A stretch of 64,000 bases of DNA from Bacteroidota bacterium. GTDB taxonomy: Bacteria; Bacteroidota; Bacteroidia; Chitinophagales; Chitinophagaceae. Position numbers and translations under genes: made by a program. The notes under the pieces are model-generated. The model was not told where the DNA came from. It did no database searches and saw only the letters and a list, made by a program, of their open reading frames with translations. The stretch lies in the NCBI GenBank assembly GCA_018267725.1, contig JAFDXY010000020.1, positions 62,001 to 126,000 on the forward strand. The letters run 5' to 3'. This document shows, in pieces, positions 25,772-44,045 of the stretch; positions within the stretch are counted from its first letter, which is position 1, and every line of letters begins with the position of its first letter.

Positions 25772-26041
25772 ATGAAAGCTACTCAAAACACGTTAGATAA
25801 GTTAGAAGATATTTTAGGAGAAAGCGGATACGTTGTTCGTTATGAGCGTGGTACTTTTCAAAGCGGTTGGTGTATTTTAGAAGCAAAAAAAATTGTAGTG
25901 CTTAATAAATTTTTAGATACAGAAGCCAGAATAAACACAATGCTTGAATTAATACCGCAACTTAATATTGAAATAGATAAACTTACACACGAAAGTCAAA
26001 AATTGTATGAGCATGTTTTAGCAAATGCAGTTTTGGTATAA
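25772..26041 (+). CDS. Small conserved hypothetical protein
   Basis: This 89-residue soluble protein has no signal or membrane segment. It begins MKATQNTLDKLEDILGESGYVVRYERGTF and looks like a beta hairpin with a helical C-terminus (LELIPQLNIEIDKLTHESQKLYEHV). I recall similar unnamed proteins in other Bacteroidota beside a metallo-beta-lactamase-fold gene, but I cannot assign a function. It is 44 bases upstream of that hydrolase here and may be co-transcribed with it. Confidence 0.75.
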   Translation: MKATQNTLDKLEDILGESGYVVRYERGTFQSGWCILEAKKIVVLNKFLDTEARINTMLELIPQLNIEIDKLTHESQKLYEHVLANAVLV

Positions 26042-26074
26042 ATAATTTAAATTCATCAATTACTTTTTAGCTTG

Positions 26075-26082
26075 TAGATTTG
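26075..26082 (+). promoter_or_regulatory. Candidate -7 element (TAGATTTG) three bases before the hydrolase GTG
   Basis: TAGATTTG ends three bases before GTG at 26086. If used, the mRNA would be leaderless. It could also be chance, because the gene may be read from the 25745 promoter. Confidence 0.35.
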
Positions 26083-26085
26083 TTT

Positions 26086-26865
26086 GTGACTACTCCGTTA
26101 AACATTAGTTTTTTAGGTACAGGTACCAGCAGTGGCGTACCTATGATTGGTTGCAGTTGCAATGTTTGTACTTCTAACAACATAAAAGATAAAAGACTTC
26201 GCAGTAGTATTTTAATACAATCTCCGCAAACAACAGTTGTAATAGATACAACTCCAGATTTTCGTTATCAAATGCTACGCATTAATAACAAAAAATTAGA
26301 TGCAGTTGTTTTTACACATGCACATAAAGATCATATTGCAGGGTTAGATGATATAAGAGCATACAACTACTTTCAAAAAAAAGATATGGAAGTGTATGCC
26401 AATGAACTAACTGCACAAGATTTAAAAAGAGATTATTATTATGCTTTTGCCGAAAAAAAATATCCCGGCGTTCCACAAATTAATTTGCATATAATTAATG
26501 AGCAACAATTTCAAGTAAACGATATTCCGTTTCAACCCATAATTGTTTGGCATTTAAAAATGAAAGTATTTGGATACAGAATAGGAAATTTTACATATAT
26601 TACAGATGCAAATAAAATAGACGAAACTGAAAAAGAAAAAATAAAAGGCTCTGAAATATTGGTGTTAAATGCATTAAGAAAAGAAAAACATTTATCGCAT
26701 TTTACATTAAACGAAGCAGTAGCTTTGGCAGAAGAATTACAAATACCAAAAGTTTATTTTACACATATTAGCCATCAGTTAGGCAAACACGAAGAAATAA
26801 ATAAACAATTACCTAAGCATATTTCTTTAGCTTACGATGGTTTAAGTTTTACTACGCATATATAA
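26086..26865 (+). CDS. Metallo-beta-lactamase-fold hydrolase (PhnP-like)
   Basis: This 259-residue metal-dependent hydrolase is of the MBL fold. It starts at GTG (an upstream in-frame TTG at 26080 is the alternative). Key motifs are FLGTGTSSGVPMIGCSCNVC at the start, FTHAHKDHIAGLDDIR for the HxHxDH metal site, VWHLKMKVFGYRIG, YITDANKID and FTHISHQLG. The GTSSGVPxxGCxCxVC start and ITDANxID pattern resemble PhnP-type cyclic-phosphodiesterases and related proteins; in many Bacteroidota they lack a named substrate. It is followed 29 bases later by the broken helix-hairpin-helix gene. Confidence 0.88.
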   Translation: MTTPLNISFLGTGTSSGVPMIGCSCNVCTSNNIKDKRLRSSILIQSPQTTVVIDTTPDFRYQMLRINNKKLDAVVFTHAHKDHIAGLDDIRAYNYFQKKDMEVYANELTAQDLKRDYYYAFAEKKYPGVPQINLHIINEQQFQVNDIPFQPIIVWHLKMKVFGYRIGNFTYITDANKIDETEKEKIKGSEILVLNALRKEKHLSHFTLNEAVALAEELQIPKVYFTHISHQLGKHEEINKQLPKHISLAYDGLSFTTHI

Positions 26866-26894
26866 TACTCCGCTAAAATTTTAAACTATGGAGT

Positions 26895-27791
26895 ATGAAA
26901 AATTTTGTAAAAGATTATTTTACGTTTTCGCGTAAAGAAAGAGTTGCATTAATTATTCTTATACTATTAATAAGCATTTTTATTGTGCTACCTTATGTTA
27001 TTCCTTTTAAAAAGAATGCACCTTTAATTAATGAGAACCTGCAACAGCAAGTAAAACTTCTACTTGTAAAAGATTCGTTGCCAAATAATAACTTGGCTGA
27101 AAATGAAACTTCAAACGAAAATTCTTTTAGTAAAAACTCATCTTATGCAATGTTTGAATTTAATCCCAATACAATTAATGAAGAAGGTTGGAAAAAATTA
27201 GGTTTGAAAGATAAAACAATAAAAACCATTTTAAATTACAGAAGCAAAGGTGGAAAATTTAAAACTGCAGAAGACATTAGAAAAATTTGGGGATTAAAAA
27301 AAGAAGATGCTGATAGAATAATTCCTTATGCAAAAATTGAAAGCAAAACAAACAATATTCTAAACACAAAAGAAGGTGCAATCAAATCAACTGTAAAGAT
27401 TGATATAAATATTGCTACTCCGCAAGAGTGGTTTACTATTCCTAATATGGATAGAAGTCTTGCTTATAAAATTATTAAGTATAAAGAAAAATTAGGAGGA
27501 TTTTTAACTATACAACAAGTTAAAGAAACTTATGGTTTAACAGATTCTTTATTTAAAATTATTGAGCCCTACTTAATACTTCAAACAACAAATATTAAAA
27601 AAATAAATATTAATATGGCAGATGATTATACTTGATCAAATCATCCATACATTAATAAAGATGTTGCCAAAGCTATTATTATTTATAGAGCACAACACGG
27701 AGATTATACAAAAATAGACGACATAAAAAAAATTGTATTTATTAAAGACGAACTCTATAATAAAATTGCACCTTATTTGGCAGTTGAGTAA
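26895..27791 (+). pseudogene. ComEA-like helix-hairpin-helix membrane protein interrupted by in-frame TGA
   Basis: This gene encodes a membrane-anchored protein with helix-hairpin-helix DNA-binding motifs. Residues 1-15 are cytoplasmic, then a transmembrane helix (VALIILILLISIFIVLPYVIPF). Three HhH-type units follow (EEGWKKLGLKDKTIKTILNYR; INIATPQEWFTIPNMDRSLA; ININMADDYT then NHPYINKDVAKAIIIYR). A TGA at 27633-27635 (codon 247) breaks the third unit. The same frame then stays open for 51 more codons with clear homology (AIIIYRAQHGDYTKIDDIKK and NKIAPYL) and ends in TAA at 27789-27791. The TGA falls where a Leu is usual, so one change from TTA would explain it. A 246-residue truncated protein could still be made. 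Confidence 0.85.
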
Positions 27792-27930
27792 ACTTTAAAT
27801 GTATAACATAATAAAAGTTTCTAAGCCTAAAAGAATACGAATACAGAATATTTTAAAAGATATACAAAATGAAATTTGGTAGAATAGAAAATCATACTAT
27901 TTTTGTTTAAAGCTAACATTTGTTAGTTTT

Positions 27931-27938
27931 TAATTTTG
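27931..27938 (+). promoter_or_regulatory. Candidate -7 element (TAATTTTG) for the acyl-CoA dehydrogenase
   Basis: TAATTTTG matches TAnnTTTG. It lies 67 bases before the start codon, so the mRNA would have a leader that includes the hairpin at 27960-27986. Confidence 0.45.
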
Positions 27939-27959
27939 GCCTTTTACGATTGCTGACCT

Positions 27960-27986
27960 CAACCCTGCAAACAATTTGCAGGGTTG
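27960..27986. other. Perfect 12-bp hairpin in the acyl-CoA dehydrogenase leader
   Basis: CAACCCTGCAAA pairs perfectly with TTTGCAGGGTTG around a three-base loop, 19 bases before the start codon. Without a T-run it could be a terminator of the broken HhH gene, an mRNA-stabilising leader hairpin or an attenuator. Confidence 0.6.
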
Positions 27987-28005
27987 TTACTTTAAAACTT
28001 ATAGA

Positions 28006-29145
28006 ATGAATTTTGCTTCATCAGAATTAACACAACAAGTTGCACAAACAGCTAAAGATTTTGCACAACAACATATTTTACCACATGTAATGCAGTGGGA
28101 TGAAACACAAGAATTTCCCGTTCAAACATTTAAACAATTAGGGCAATTAGGTTTAATGGGTGTATTAGTACCCGAAGCTTATGGCGGTGCAGGTCTAGGT
28201 TATTTTGAGTATGTTTCAATTATTAAAGAAATTTCTAAAGTGTGTGGCTCTGTGGGTTTAAGTTTGGCTGCACACAATTCTCTTTGCACCAATCATATAT
28301 TAACTTTTGGTAATGAATATCAAAAGAAAAAATATTTACCAAAATTAGCAAGCGGCGAATTTATAGGAGCATGGGGTTTAACCGAAGCCAATACCGGAAG
28401 TGATGCAGGCAATATGCAAACAATTGCCATAAAAGATGGAAGTAATTGGATTATTAACGGAACCAAATGTTGGATAACACATGGCAAAAGTGGAGATGTT
28501 GCTGTAGTTATTTGCAGAACAGGAGAACCACATACAAGCGGCAACAGCACTGCATTTATAATTGAAAGAGGAACCAAAGGTTTTAATGCAGGAAAGAAAG
28601 AAAATAAATTAGGAATGCGTGCAAGCGAAACAGCAGAAATGATATTTGATAATTGTATAATAAGTGATGAGCAACGTTTGGGCGAAGTAGGAGATGGTTT
28701 CAGACAATCATTAAAAATATTAGATGGCGGCAGAATTTCAATTGCGGCATTAGCCGTTGGTATTGCACAAGGTGCATACGAGGCTGCAATTAAATATGCA
28801 AAAGAACGCCATCAGTTTGGGCAGCCCATTGCTAATTTTCAAGGCATAAGTTTTAAGCTGGCAGATATGGCAACAGAAATTGCTGCTGCAGATTTATTAT
28901 TACTACAAGCCTGCGATTTAAAAGAACGCCACGAAAAACTTACCAAGCAAAGTGCTATGGCAAAATATTATTGTAGCGAGGTTGCTGTAAAAGTTGCTAA
29001 CGATGCAGTACAAATTTTTGGCGGCTACGGTTATACTAAAGATTTTCCGGTAGAAAAATTTTACCGAGACGCCAAATTATGCACCATTGGCGAGGGCACC
29101 AGCGAAATTCAAAAAATTGTTATTGCCAGAAATGTGTTAAGTTAA
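28006..29145 (+). CDS. Acyl-CoA dehydrogenase (short-chain type)
   Basis: This FAD enzyme oxidises acyl-CoA to trans-2-enoyl-CoA in fatty- or branched-chain-acid degradation. The 379 residues match the family. Motifs include LGQLGLMGVLVPEAYGGAGL, GSDAGNMQTIA for FAD/substrate loops, GTKCWITHG, LGMRASETAEM, YAKERHQFGQPIANFQ and the end ICTIGEGTSEIQ-like TIGEGTSEIQKIVIARNVL, whose Glu before GTSEIQ is the catalytic base. The start at MNFASSEL is preferred over an extension that overlaps the leader hairpin. No partner enoyl-CoA hydratase or ETF gene is adjacent. Confidence 0.94.
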   Translation: MNFASSELTQQVAQTAKDFAQQHILPHVMQWDETQEFPVQTFKQLGQLGLMGVLVPEAYGGAGLGYFEYVSIIKEISKVCGSVGLSLAAHNSLCTNHILTFGNEYQKKKYLPKLASGEFIGAWGLTEANTGSDAGNMQTIAIKDGSNWIINGTKCWITHGKSGDVAVVICRTGEPHTSGNSTAFIIERGTKGFNAGKKENKLGMRASETAEMIFDNCIISDEQRLGEVGDGFRQSLKILDGGRISIAALAVGIAQGAYEAAIKYAKERHQFGQPIANFQGISFKLADMATEIAAADLLLLQACDLKERHEKLTKQSAMAKYYCSEVAVKVANDAVQIFGGYGYTKDFPVEKFYRDAKLCTIGEGTSEIQKIVIARNVLS

Positions 29146-29171
29146 TTGCATGAGCCAAGCAATAGAATAAT

Positions 29172-29208
29172 TATTAAACTTTTCTTGCGTCGCACACTTG
29201 TACTTTCT
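29172..29208 (+). repeat. Dispersed repeat (TTGCGTCGCACACTTGT core), copy 2
   Basis: This copy begins 27 bases after the acyl-CoA dehydrogenase stop and has the same orientation as copy 1 at 25592. It lies between two convergent genes. Confidence 0.75.
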
Positions 29209-29224
29209 GTTCTTTTAGTAGCAA

Positions 29225-29368
29225 TTAACCTTGAAACAATTTATCAACCGCACCGGCCATCATCGGAAATTTTTCTTTTACAAAACCAGCAACGGCTTCT
29301 AATGCTTTTTGTGCTTGCTCTGGTGTAACGTTAGCTTCAGTACAAATTTTTTCAATTAACTCGTTCAT
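29225..29368 (-). CDS. Small helical protein (47 residues) coupled to uvrC
   Basis: This short frame has ATG at 29366-29368 and TAA at 29225-29227. Its start lies three bases after the uvrC stop, so it is the last gene of that operon and translation may be coupled. It reads MNELIEKICTEANVTPEQAQ, then KALEAVAGFVKEKFPMM, then AGAVDKLFQG. The pattern of a helix, a VTPEQAQKAL turn and FVKEKFP resembles small DUF2267/DUF2780-like proteins in many bacteria that share an 'ELI..I....GI...QA..AV..V..FLK.K.P' layout. I cannot name its function. Codon use is normal for the genome. Confidence 0.75.
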   Translation of the reverse strand: MNELIEKICTEANVTPEQAQKALEAVAGFVKEKFPMMAGAVDKLFQG

Positions 29369-29371
29369 AAA

Positions 29372-31183
29372 TTATAATTTAGTATTATTAAAATATTGTT
29401 TAATTAATTCTGCTTTTGCGTTTCCTATTATTGTTGCAATTTCTTCTTTTGTTTTTTCTTTAATATTTTTTACAGATTTGAATGTTTTTAATAATTGATT
29501 GGCTGTTTCTTTTCCTATACCTTTAATATTTTCCAATTCATTTTTAAAAGTTCCTTTTGAGCGTTTGTTTCTATGAAAGGTAATACCAAAGCGGTGTACT
29601 TCATCTCTTACTCTGCGAATTAATTTTAAACTATTACTATCCCAAGGTAGTTTTATAGATTGCTTATCTCCGGCAAAAAATATTTCTTCTTCATTTTTTG
29701 CTAAACCAACTAAGGTTAATTTTCCTGTTAAATTTAAATCGTGTATAGCTTCTAATGCAGCACCCAATTGTCCTTTACCGCCATCAATAATAACTAATTG
29801 AGGAAAAGGTTGTTGTTCTTCTTTTAAACGTTTATATCTTCTATAAACAACTTCTTTCATGGTTGCAAAATCATTAATACCTTCAACTGTTTTTACATTA
29901 AAATGTCTGTAATCTTTTTTGCTTGGTAGTCCGTTTTTAAAACAAACCATTGCAGATACAGGAAAACTTCCTTGAAAATTAGAATTATCAAAACATTCAA
30001 TATGCGTTGGTGTTTCGTGTAGTTGTAAATAATTTTTTAGTTCAACTAATATATTTTCTTTTTCACTATCTGTTTTTTCTTCTAAATGCAAAATTTTTTT
30101 CTTTTTAATTTCTGCTTTAAAATAGTTTACGTTTTTAATTGATAAATCGAGCAGCTTTTTTTTATCGCCGCTTTTAGGTATGGTTATAATAATATTTTTT
30201 TCGGCATATTCAATTTCAAAAGGCACAATAATTTCATTTGAAAGGCTGTTAAAAGTTTCTCGTAAATTACTAATGGCATAACTTAAAACTTCTTGTTCTG
30301 TTTCTTCTAAATGCGTTTGCAATGGTACTGTATGTGTTTGCACAATAGTTCCGTTTTGTACCATTAAATAATTTACATAAGCAATATCTTCATCTTTTAA
30401 AATTGAAAATACATCTACATTGGTTAGATGTTTGCTTACAATAACAGAACGTGCCTGATAACTTTCTAAATACTCTATTTTTTTCCTTACCATTTCCGCT
30501 TTCTCAAATGCAAGCCTGGCAACATATTGCTGCATTTCATTTTTATAATAATTTATAATACCCGATAAATTTCCTTTTAAAATTTCTTTAATATGTTGTA
30601 ACCCTTCTGCATAATCAGTTGTTGTTTGTAACCCTTCGCAAGGGCCTTTGCAATTACCTAAATGATATTCTAAACAAACTTTAAATTTTTTCTTAGCAAT
30701 ATTGTTTTCAGTAAGATTGAGCTTGCATGTTCTTAACGGAATAAATTGCTTAATAAATTCCAACAACTCTCTTAGTTTTCCGGTAGATGTAAATGGGCCA
30801 AGGTATTCAGAGCCATCATTTATTTTTTTTCTTGTTAAAAATACTCTGGGAAAAGGCTCTTTTTTTATTACAATATATGGGTATGTTTTATCGTCTTTTA
30901 AATTAATATTAAATAATGGGCGAAATTGTTTTATTAAAGAATTTTCTAATAAGAATGCATCTTGTTCAGAATCTACAATAGTAAATTCTATATGATGAAT
31001 ACGTTTAACAAGCTCGTGTGTTTTGTATGATGAATGTGTTTTACTGAAGTACGAACTAATTCTTTTTCGCAAACTTTTTGCTTTGCCTACATATAATAAT
31101 TCTGCATCTGCACTAAAGTATTTGTATATACCAGGTTGCAGTGGAAGTGTTGGTGCTATTTTTTGAAACTCGTTACTTGTCAT
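29372..31183 (-). CDS. uvrC: Excinuclease ABC subunit UvrC
   Basis: UvrC makes both incisions around bulky DNA lesions in nucleotide-excision repair with UvrA and UvrB. The 603 residues carry an N-terminal GIY-YIG nuclease (LPLQPGIYKYFSADAELLYVGKAKSLRKR), the Cys-rich/UvrBC region (CLEYHLGNCKGPC and FEKAEMVRKKIEYLES), an RNase H-like endonuclease domain (IECFDNSNFQGSFPVSAMVCF, VIIDGGKGQLGAAL, and DEVHRFGITFHR) and a C-terminal HhH (LENIKGIGKETANQLL). The start overlaps the end of the lipoprotein gene upstream by 11 bases, which suggests one operon. Confidence 0.97.
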   Translation of the reverse strand: MTSNEFQKIAPTLPLQPGIYKYFSADAELLYVGKAKSLRKRISSYFSKTHSSYKTHELVKRIHHIEFTIVDSEQDAFLLENSLIKQFRPLFNINLKDDKTYPYIVIKKEPFPRVFLTRKKINDGSEYLGPFTSTGKLRELLEFIKQFIPLRTCKLNLTENNIAKKKFKVCLEYHLGNCKGPCEGLQTTTDYAEGLQHIKEILKGNLSGIINYYKNEMQQYVARLAFEKAEMVRKKIEYLESYQARSVIVSKHLTNVDVFSILKDEDIAYVNYLMVQNGTIVQTHTVPLQTHLEETEQEVLSYAISNLRETFNSLSNEIIVPFEIEYAEKNIIITIPKSGDKKKLLDLSIKNVNYFKAEIKKKKILHLEEKTDSEKENILVELKNYLQLHETPTHIECFDNSNFQGSFPVSAMVCFKNGLPSKKDYRHFNVKTVEGINDFATMKEVVYRRYKRLKEEQQPFPQLVIIDGGKGQLGAALEAIHDLNLTGKLTLVGLAKNEEEIFFAGDKQSIKLPWDSNSLKLIRRVRDEVHRFGITFHRNKRSKGTFKNELENIKGIGKETANQLLKTFKSVKNIKEKTKEEIATIIGNAKAELIKQYFNNTKL

Positions 31184-42941: not shown

Positions 42942-44045
42942 TTACGTTAGTTTATATATTTTTCCGGGTAGGCTTGCAATAATATTGTTCATTTCTAAAT
43001 TTAAAATGGCTGCTGCAACAGAACTACTGCTGGTATTGCTTTTTAAATAAATTTCATCTATATGAATTTGTTCTTTTTCTTTTATTATTTGAAGAATTAT
43101 TTTTTCATCTTCAGTTAATTCAATAAACAATTCTTTTTGATTTTTTTTCTTTGATAAATTATTTTCTTGCCACCCTAATTCATGCAGCATTGTTTCGGGC
43201 GATGTATAAATAATGGCTTTGTTTTGTTGAATTAATTTTAAGCAACCACTACTTTTGGTATCAGTAATTTTTGCGGGCACTGCAAATACATCTCTATTAT
43301 AATTGTATGCTAATTCTGCGGTAATCATACTGCCGCCTTTAATGGCGGTTTCAATTACAATGGTTGCGTCACTAATGCCTGCAACAATTCTGTTTCTTTT
43401 AGGAAAATTATGTTTATCGGCTTTTATGTTTTTATTAAACTCCGTTAATAAGCCACCATTTAATAAAATTTCTTTTGCTAAATTTTTATGTTGTGTTGGA
43501 TAAATAGTTTGCAACCCATGAGCTAATACGGCAACTGTTGCCAAATTATTTTTTAAAGCAGCTTTATGTGCAATAGCATCAATACCAAATGCAAGCCCGC
43601 TAATAATTGTAACGTTTTGTTGTTGCAAACTTTCTATTAAAATTTCTGTAACCTGTTTGCCATAATCGCTATTGGTTCTGGTGCCAATAACAGATATAAT
43701 TTTTTTGTTATTTAAATCGGCATTGCCTCTATAATACAAAACTGTTGGTGCATCGTAACAATGTTTTAAACGTTGCGGATAATTTTTATTGTTGAAAGAA
43801 AGAATATGGATATGATGTTTTTCGCAAAATTTTATTTCTTCTTCTATTACATTAAAAGCATTAAAATCTTTAATTGCTTTTGCTTTTATTTCTCCAATAC
43901 CTTCAACATTTGATAAATCTTTTTTCTTGGCTTTAAAAATATTTTCTGCGTTTGCAAAATGTTCTAATAAAAGTTTTGCTTGAATAGAACCAATGCCATT
44001 TACTTGCGTTAATGCAATTTGATAATATGTTTCAGATTGTTGCAT
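42942..44045 (-). CDS. dprA: DNA-processing protein DprA (Smf)
   Basis: DprA binds incoming single-stranded DNA and loads RecA in natural transformation; it is widespread even in bacteria not known to be competent. The 367 residues include a SAM/HhH-like N-terminal part (VNGIGSIQAKLLLEHFANAENIF, VEGIGEIKAKAI), the Rossmann-like core (ISVIGTRTNSDYGKQVTEIL, IISGLAFGIDAIAHKAAL, FPKRNRIVAGISDATIVIETAIKGGSMITAELA and DVFAVPAKI) and a C-terminal winged-helix-like domain (IDEIYLKSNTSSSSVAAAILNLEMNNII). It lies 75 bases upstream of guaB on the same strand. Confidence 0.94.
   Translation of the reverse strand: MQQSETYYQIALTQVNGIGSIQAKLLLEHFANAENIFKAKKKDLSNVEGIGEIKAKAIKDFNAFNVIEEEIKFCEKHHIHILSFNNKNYPQRLKHCYDAPTVLYYRGNADLNNKKIISVIGTRTNSDYGKQVTEILIESLQQQNVTIISGLAFGIDAIAHKAALKNNLATVAVLAHGLQTIYPTQHKNLAKEILLNGGLLTEFNKNIKADKHNFPKRNRIVAGISDATIVIETAIKGGSMITAELAYNYNRDVFAVPAKITDTKSSGCLKLIQQNKAIIYTSPETMLHELGWQENNLSKKKNQKELFIELTEDEKIILQIIKEKEQIHIDEIYLKSNTSSSSVAAAILNLEMNNIIASLPGKIYKLT

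Follow-up and report, generated by a model that had tools for sequence, protein, structure and literature searches.

In the window analysed here, a stretch of 64,000 nucleotides from a Bacteroidota bacterium, the gene for a helix-hairpin-helix (HhH) protein contains an in-frame TGA codon, beyond which the frame continues with conserved sequence. The question raised by this locus is whether the TGA is a recent nonsense mutation, a sequencing error or a site of readthrough. These three options were named by the original prediction, which was made from the window alone; they are also the ones that remain after the present analysis, and they are ranked here. The best reading, to which we assign a probability of about 0.6, is a recent, isolated nonsense change, ahead of an error or strain variant and then of readthrough.

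The interrupted gene and its product

The gene is located at 26895-27791 on the plus strand (coordinates refer to this strand unless stated otherwise) and consists of 246 codons, the TGA at 27633-27635, 51 conserved sense codons (27636-27788) and a TAA at 27789-27791 that forms an ordinary gene end. The prediction of an HhH gene with an in-frame TGA was therefore exact to the base. Its codon numbering needs one adjustment: the coordinates of the stop are correct, but the stop is itself codon 247, and the downstream residues begin after 247. The open reading frame (ORF) that ends at the TGA (26895-27635) starts with ATG and encodes 246 residues. The 51 residues after the stop match Pfam family HHH_3 by themselves (E 1.4e-9; 38.4 bits, cut-off 27), as expected from the claim that homology persists past the TGA, so the continuation of the frame is not due to chance. 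A restart of translation downstream of the stop was rejected because the 51 codons hold no in-frame ATG, and slippage at the A7 run upstream of the stop was rejected because both other frames, judged by eye, soon meet stops. An Rfam scan of 26000-29500 matched no RNA element around the stop.

The AlphaFold2 model of the protein (alignment of 15 sequences, mean pLDDT 75.7, pTM 0.44) displays a long helix at residues 13-35, a low-confidence stretch at residues 56-85 and three four-helix modules, each of the (HhH)2 type. Helix 13-35 (26931-26999) is hydrophobic and, on the basis of the model, is probably a membrane anchor. Module 1 comprises residues 96-145 (27180-27329), with helices at 96-101, 106-117, 125-130 and 136-145. 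Modules 2 and 3 coincide with the best HHH_3 stretches, at residues 165-227 (27387-27575; helices from 176-179 to 217-226) and 233-295 (27591-27779; helices 244-248, 255-268, 274-279 and 285-294) respectively. In this model the stop falls within the first short helix of module 3, 244-248.

Read across the stop, the protein contains three HHH_3 stretches (116.1 bits, compared with 74 bits for the 246-residue product; cut-off 27). The NCBIfam model of the ComEA HhH repeat region, TIGR00426, scores 69.9 bits across the stop, above its cut-off of 53.1, and 49.3 bits, under that cut-off, for the 246-residue product. The NCBIfam comE model TIGR01259 reaches 82.7 bits across the stop, under its curated cut-off of 152.35, and the protein is therefore labelled ComEA-like rather than ComEA. 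Its family and a three-HhH protein of Riemerella anatipestifer described in the available text of PMC8459023 suggest that it would bind DNA and serve DNA uptake.

The next gene, at 27976-29145 on the plus strand, encodes an acyl-CoA dehydrogenase according to Pfam; as in the window, the start of such a gene directly follows two of the short homologues described below (L115 and L119). The same window contains an intact DprA-family gene on the minus strand (42942-44045), with a PF02481 match at 43206-43826 (E 8.4e-79) and no internal stop, and a ComEC-family gene without stops is also present in the window genome.

The stop position in relatives

A search of 99 genomes, including that of the window, gave matches in 91. 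Loci were available for 29 relatives, of which 27 entered the alignment, without L028 (no N-terminal part) and L030 (short, ending after module 2). The column of the stop contains Leu in 22 of these relatives, Met in three and Ile in two. None of the 27 has a stop there, and the TGA is therefore not a conserved readthrough or recoding site; Trp was likewise seen in none of the 27. The original prediction had proposed the sequence of relatives as a check, and all 27 are open at this codon. It had also described the position as normally Leu, which is right in that Leu is the commonest residue but too strict, given the Met and Ile in the remaining five. The single TTA-to-TGA change that it put forward agrees with the two nearest congeners, G001 (80% identity) and G003 (73% identity), both of which carry TTA. 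Named metagenome assemblies supplied 14 homologues, some being the same records, and these too extend past the stop position.

In the 99-genome search, only the window genome and G039 were listed with a TGA within the match. The homologue in G039 has its in-frame TGA in module 1 (L118:630-632), with further stops upstream.

Constraint downstream of the stop

In the comparison with G001, dN/dS is 0.273 before the stop and 0.106 after it; in the comparison with G003, the corresponding values are 0.169 and 0.184. When post-stop changes were assigned to branches with G003 as the outgroup, three of the seven on the window branch were nonsynonymous, where a fraction of about 0.76 is expected without constraint (P 0.06, a weak result); for the window and G001 branches together the count was five of 18 (P 2e-5). 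These substitutions suggest that constraint on the 3' part probably persisted through most of the period after the split from G001, the branch test alone not being conclusive. The apparent constraint on the codons beyond the stop makes an old stop unlikely. With so weak a branch-specific test, the main support for a recent origin is the pairwise ratio, to which the G001 branch also contributes.

Genetic code and termination

The window genome encodes RF2 (469.7 bits, cut-off 370). Its prfB gene (L113) consists of a short leader that ends AGGAGGTTTCTTTGAC and a remainder in the +1 frame (AGGAGG...CTTTGAC), an arrangement that we take to be the classic RF2 frameshift site. Of 657 non-overlapping ORFs (minimum length 150 residues) sampled from 911,700 bases of this genome, 36, the gene under study among them, end in TGA; TGA thus properly ends other genes, as had been stated. 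The anticodon UCA was found in none of the 33 tRNAs detected, a list that is incomplete, as Ile-GAU and Ala-UGC are missing from it. Reassignment of UGA is ruled out by RF2, the prfB frameshift site and the use of TGA as a terminator, and together with the lack of a UCA anticodon these uphold the earlier view that the code is not altered. Selenocysteine was also rejected: the tRNA-Sec model matched only under its cut-off, at four places that are ordinary Ser or Leu tRNA genes.

Other interrupted genes

Genes of G001 were compared with the window genome (G000), with 331 counterparts for contigs C12 (144,000 bases) and C31 (300,000 bases) and 102 for contig C7 (298,000 bases). These 433 comparisons, covering 157,196 aligned residues, revealed two clear interior stops in the window genome, the TGA described above and a TAG, and no frameshift was flagged among them. 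The TAG lies in a gene for an AI-2E family transporter (PF01594; L080), where it replaces TGG at codon 58 of 360; the gene is otherwise 94% identical to that of G001. It is located at C12:29577-29579 on the minus strand, on the same contig as the TGA of the window, and so speaks against a cause peculiar to TGA.

The reverse comparison, of window-genome genes with G001 (328 and 101 genes), identified a broken M28 peptidase gene in G001 (L144; C18, about 286863-287960), interrupted by a frameshift as well as by a TAA at codon 93; this gene is intact in the window genome (C31:230033-231697). Three further G001 flags (C12r|66947, C31|121908 and C31|180691) are in stretches of 62-80% identity, and the other flagged G001 rows lie near gene ends, as judged by position. 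Both genomes thus show a low frequency of single breaks, with no link to TGA in particular.

Flags set aside in the window genome comprise nine ORFs from the C12/C31 screen and three from the C7 screen. In all but one the stops fall in the first 26 or the last ten codons, where the start may be misplaced or the ends may differ; these flags were judged by position, and the translation was read for C3|100150. The candidate C18|42754, with stops at codons 41 and 68 of 206, was rejected, its stops being judged from the translation to precede the real start. An earlier, looser screen flagged many antisense ORFs and was kept out of the counts.

A tRNA-Trp with a four-base-pair anticodon stem

The only tRNA-Trp found in the window genome (L071:1501-1572, contig C26) has an anticodon stem of 4 bp, in which the top position, C27xU43, is unpinned and adjoins a G28-U42 pair. 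The tRNA-Trp genes of G001, G003 and G013 are identical to it. Of 17 genomes searched, 15 gave a match, making 16 with that of the window. The unpinned C27xU43 with G28-U42 is present in seven of these 16 (the window genome, G001, G003, G013, G040, G027 and G050), and the top position of the anticodon stem is paired in the remaining nine; position 24 is A in all 16. According to the available text of PMC13092985, overexpression of an unpinned tRNA-Trp (C27A) in E. coli increased UGA readthrough by a factor of about 2.5, its effect at native levels is described by the authors as remaining to be assessed, and such a tRNA-Trp is the only one in approximately 6.5% of standard-code bacteria. By analogy, some readthrough of UGA by the 4-bp tRNA-Trp is possible.

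Further in-frame stops shortly after the terminator were considered as a possible sign that UGA is leaky. In four genomes with the 4-bp tRNA-Trp (the window genome, G001, G003 and G040), such a stop lies within five codons of the end in 61 of 108 TGA-ended ORFs, compared with 487 of 1420 that end in TAA or TAG (Fisher P 6e-6). Most of this excess comes from the codon immediately after the stop (31 of 108 after TGA, 146 of 1420 after TAA or TAG), and the control genome G002, with a 5-bp tRNA-Trp, leans the same way (14 of 29 after TGA, 70 of 250 otherwise). A TGA-linked excess of stops at codon +1 in bacteria is reported, and attributed to a preference for T, in the accessible part of Ho and Hurst (PMC6764699). 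On these three grounds the extra stops were dropped as a mark of leaky UGA.

Homologues with fewer modules

Three homologues (L115, L116 and L119) have open frames of 252-256 residues that end just after module 2. In a tree built on modules 1 and 2 they group together (support 93/90), at a distance from the window gene, and no remnant of module 3 was found in the three frames after the stops of L119 and L115. Some other homologues are without module 1 instead, for example L120. Because the number of modules varies among homologues, a two-module product may work, and it is plausible from these comparisons that the 246-residue product, with modules 1 and 2 whole, has partial function. Module 3 of a protein of the DNA-uptake type is thus naturally absent in some relatives.

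In the homologue from G019, the frame is broken in an A7 run at the junction of modules 2 and 3 (L117:1259-1265), at an indel or a slippage site.

Origin of the interruption

Judged from the sequence comparisons, the TGA is an isolated event, neither a change of code nor a conserved recoding site. The intact protein would be ComEA-like: a short N-terminus in the cytoplasm and a single membrane helix would precede three paired HhH modules, which probably lie in the periplasm and bind DNA during uptake. A single base change would have created the TGA recently, after the split from G001, on the lineage of the window or in part of the sampled population. Ribosomes would mostly halt at this codon and release a product of 246 residues, in which modules 1 and 2 are complete and module 3 breaks off three residues into its first helix. 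Given the relatives that have modules 1 and 2 alone, this two-module product may keep some of its function.

An error of consensus or assembly, or a minor strain variant in a sample where most cells have the open gene, ranks second and is an unlikely explanation. In one assembly it would look the same as a real nonsense change, and it fits with the stop's absence from all aligned relatives, with a 3' part that looks constrained and with a second isolated nonsense codon on the same contig. Both congeners are metagenome assemblies, and the window genome, in 31 contigs, may be one too; a literature search on premature stops in metagenome assemblies returned nothing useful. What weighs against an error is the lack of flagged frameshifts, the two interior nonsense codons in the whole aligned set, which are no flood, and the many missense errors that would be expected if both stops were errors. 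Tolerated readthrough, in which the 4-bp tRNA-Trp would read some of the UGA codons to give some full-length protein with Trp247, is third in rank and improbable. The identical tRNA in G001 and G003 coexists with an open gene, genomes with this tRNA still end genes in TGA, and the equally isolated TAG of the transporter gene is not expected to be read by a tRNA-Trp. Readthrough does predict the constraint kept beyond the stop, and a large hydrophobic residue may do at a position that takes Leu, Met or Ile; neither Trp nor a stop, however, occurs there in any aligned relative. The unpinned C27xU43 with G28-U42 beside it, together with the overexpression result, argues for some decoding of UGA, whereas the native-level effect is unassessed in the available text of PMC13092985.

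A broader version of this idea deserves still less weight: that in a Chitinophagaceae branch the tRNA-Trp without its top pair reads UGA as Trp often enough to make in-frame UGA near-neutral and to supply some full-length protein, so that TGA is gained and lost by genes, the lineage having moved part of the way towards a UGA-Trp code with RF2 retained. The least probable explanation, and one that we consider very remote, is an adaptive or settled shortening, by which the species would now have a two-module protein like L115, L116 and L119, with module 3 decaying. The existence of natural two-module homologues and the frame of L117, broken at the same junction, are in its favour, but the 51 codons after the stop are without decay, those homologues are distant from the window gene, and the lack of any module 3 remnant after the stops of L119 and L115 marks their losses as old.

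As a recent nonsense codon, the TGA adds one more isolated interrupted gene, which is fairly ordinary. If it is true that the 4-bp tRNA-Trp reads UGA at native levels, the gene would be a natural reporter of UGA decoding by a near-cognate tRNA in a standard-code lineage.

Comparison with known systems

ComEA carries one HhH module, whereas the window protein has three. The HhH part of ComEA (ComE operon protein 1; PDB code 8dss, chain A, residues 85-147) is matched by residues 235-297 of the window protein, that is, by module 3 (E 1.2e-4).

The interruption itself resembles the in-frame stops of PMC7918605, which according to its available text tend to last a short evolutionary time in bacterial genes under purifying selection; as in the window gene, an isolated stop is accompanied by constraint beyond it. 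The large-scale set described there consists of stops shared by at least two species, whereas the stop of the window is present in one genome. The tRNA-Trp is similar to those described in the accessible part of PMC13092985 in its unpinned C:U top pair, its CCA anticodon and its standard-code genome. That text places tRNAs with G24A outside its 'Blastocrithidia-like' set, and the tRNA-Trp of the window genome has A24.

By description, rather than by sequence, the protein is most readily likened to RA0C_RS02645 of Riemerella anatipestifer, which is also from Bacteroidota, is predicted to be periplasmic, contains three HhH domains and is essential for natural transformation (PMC8459023). It differs from the window gene in that the available text of that study makes no mention of an interruption. 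ComEC and DprA occur in R. anatipestifer as well, as both families do in the window genome.
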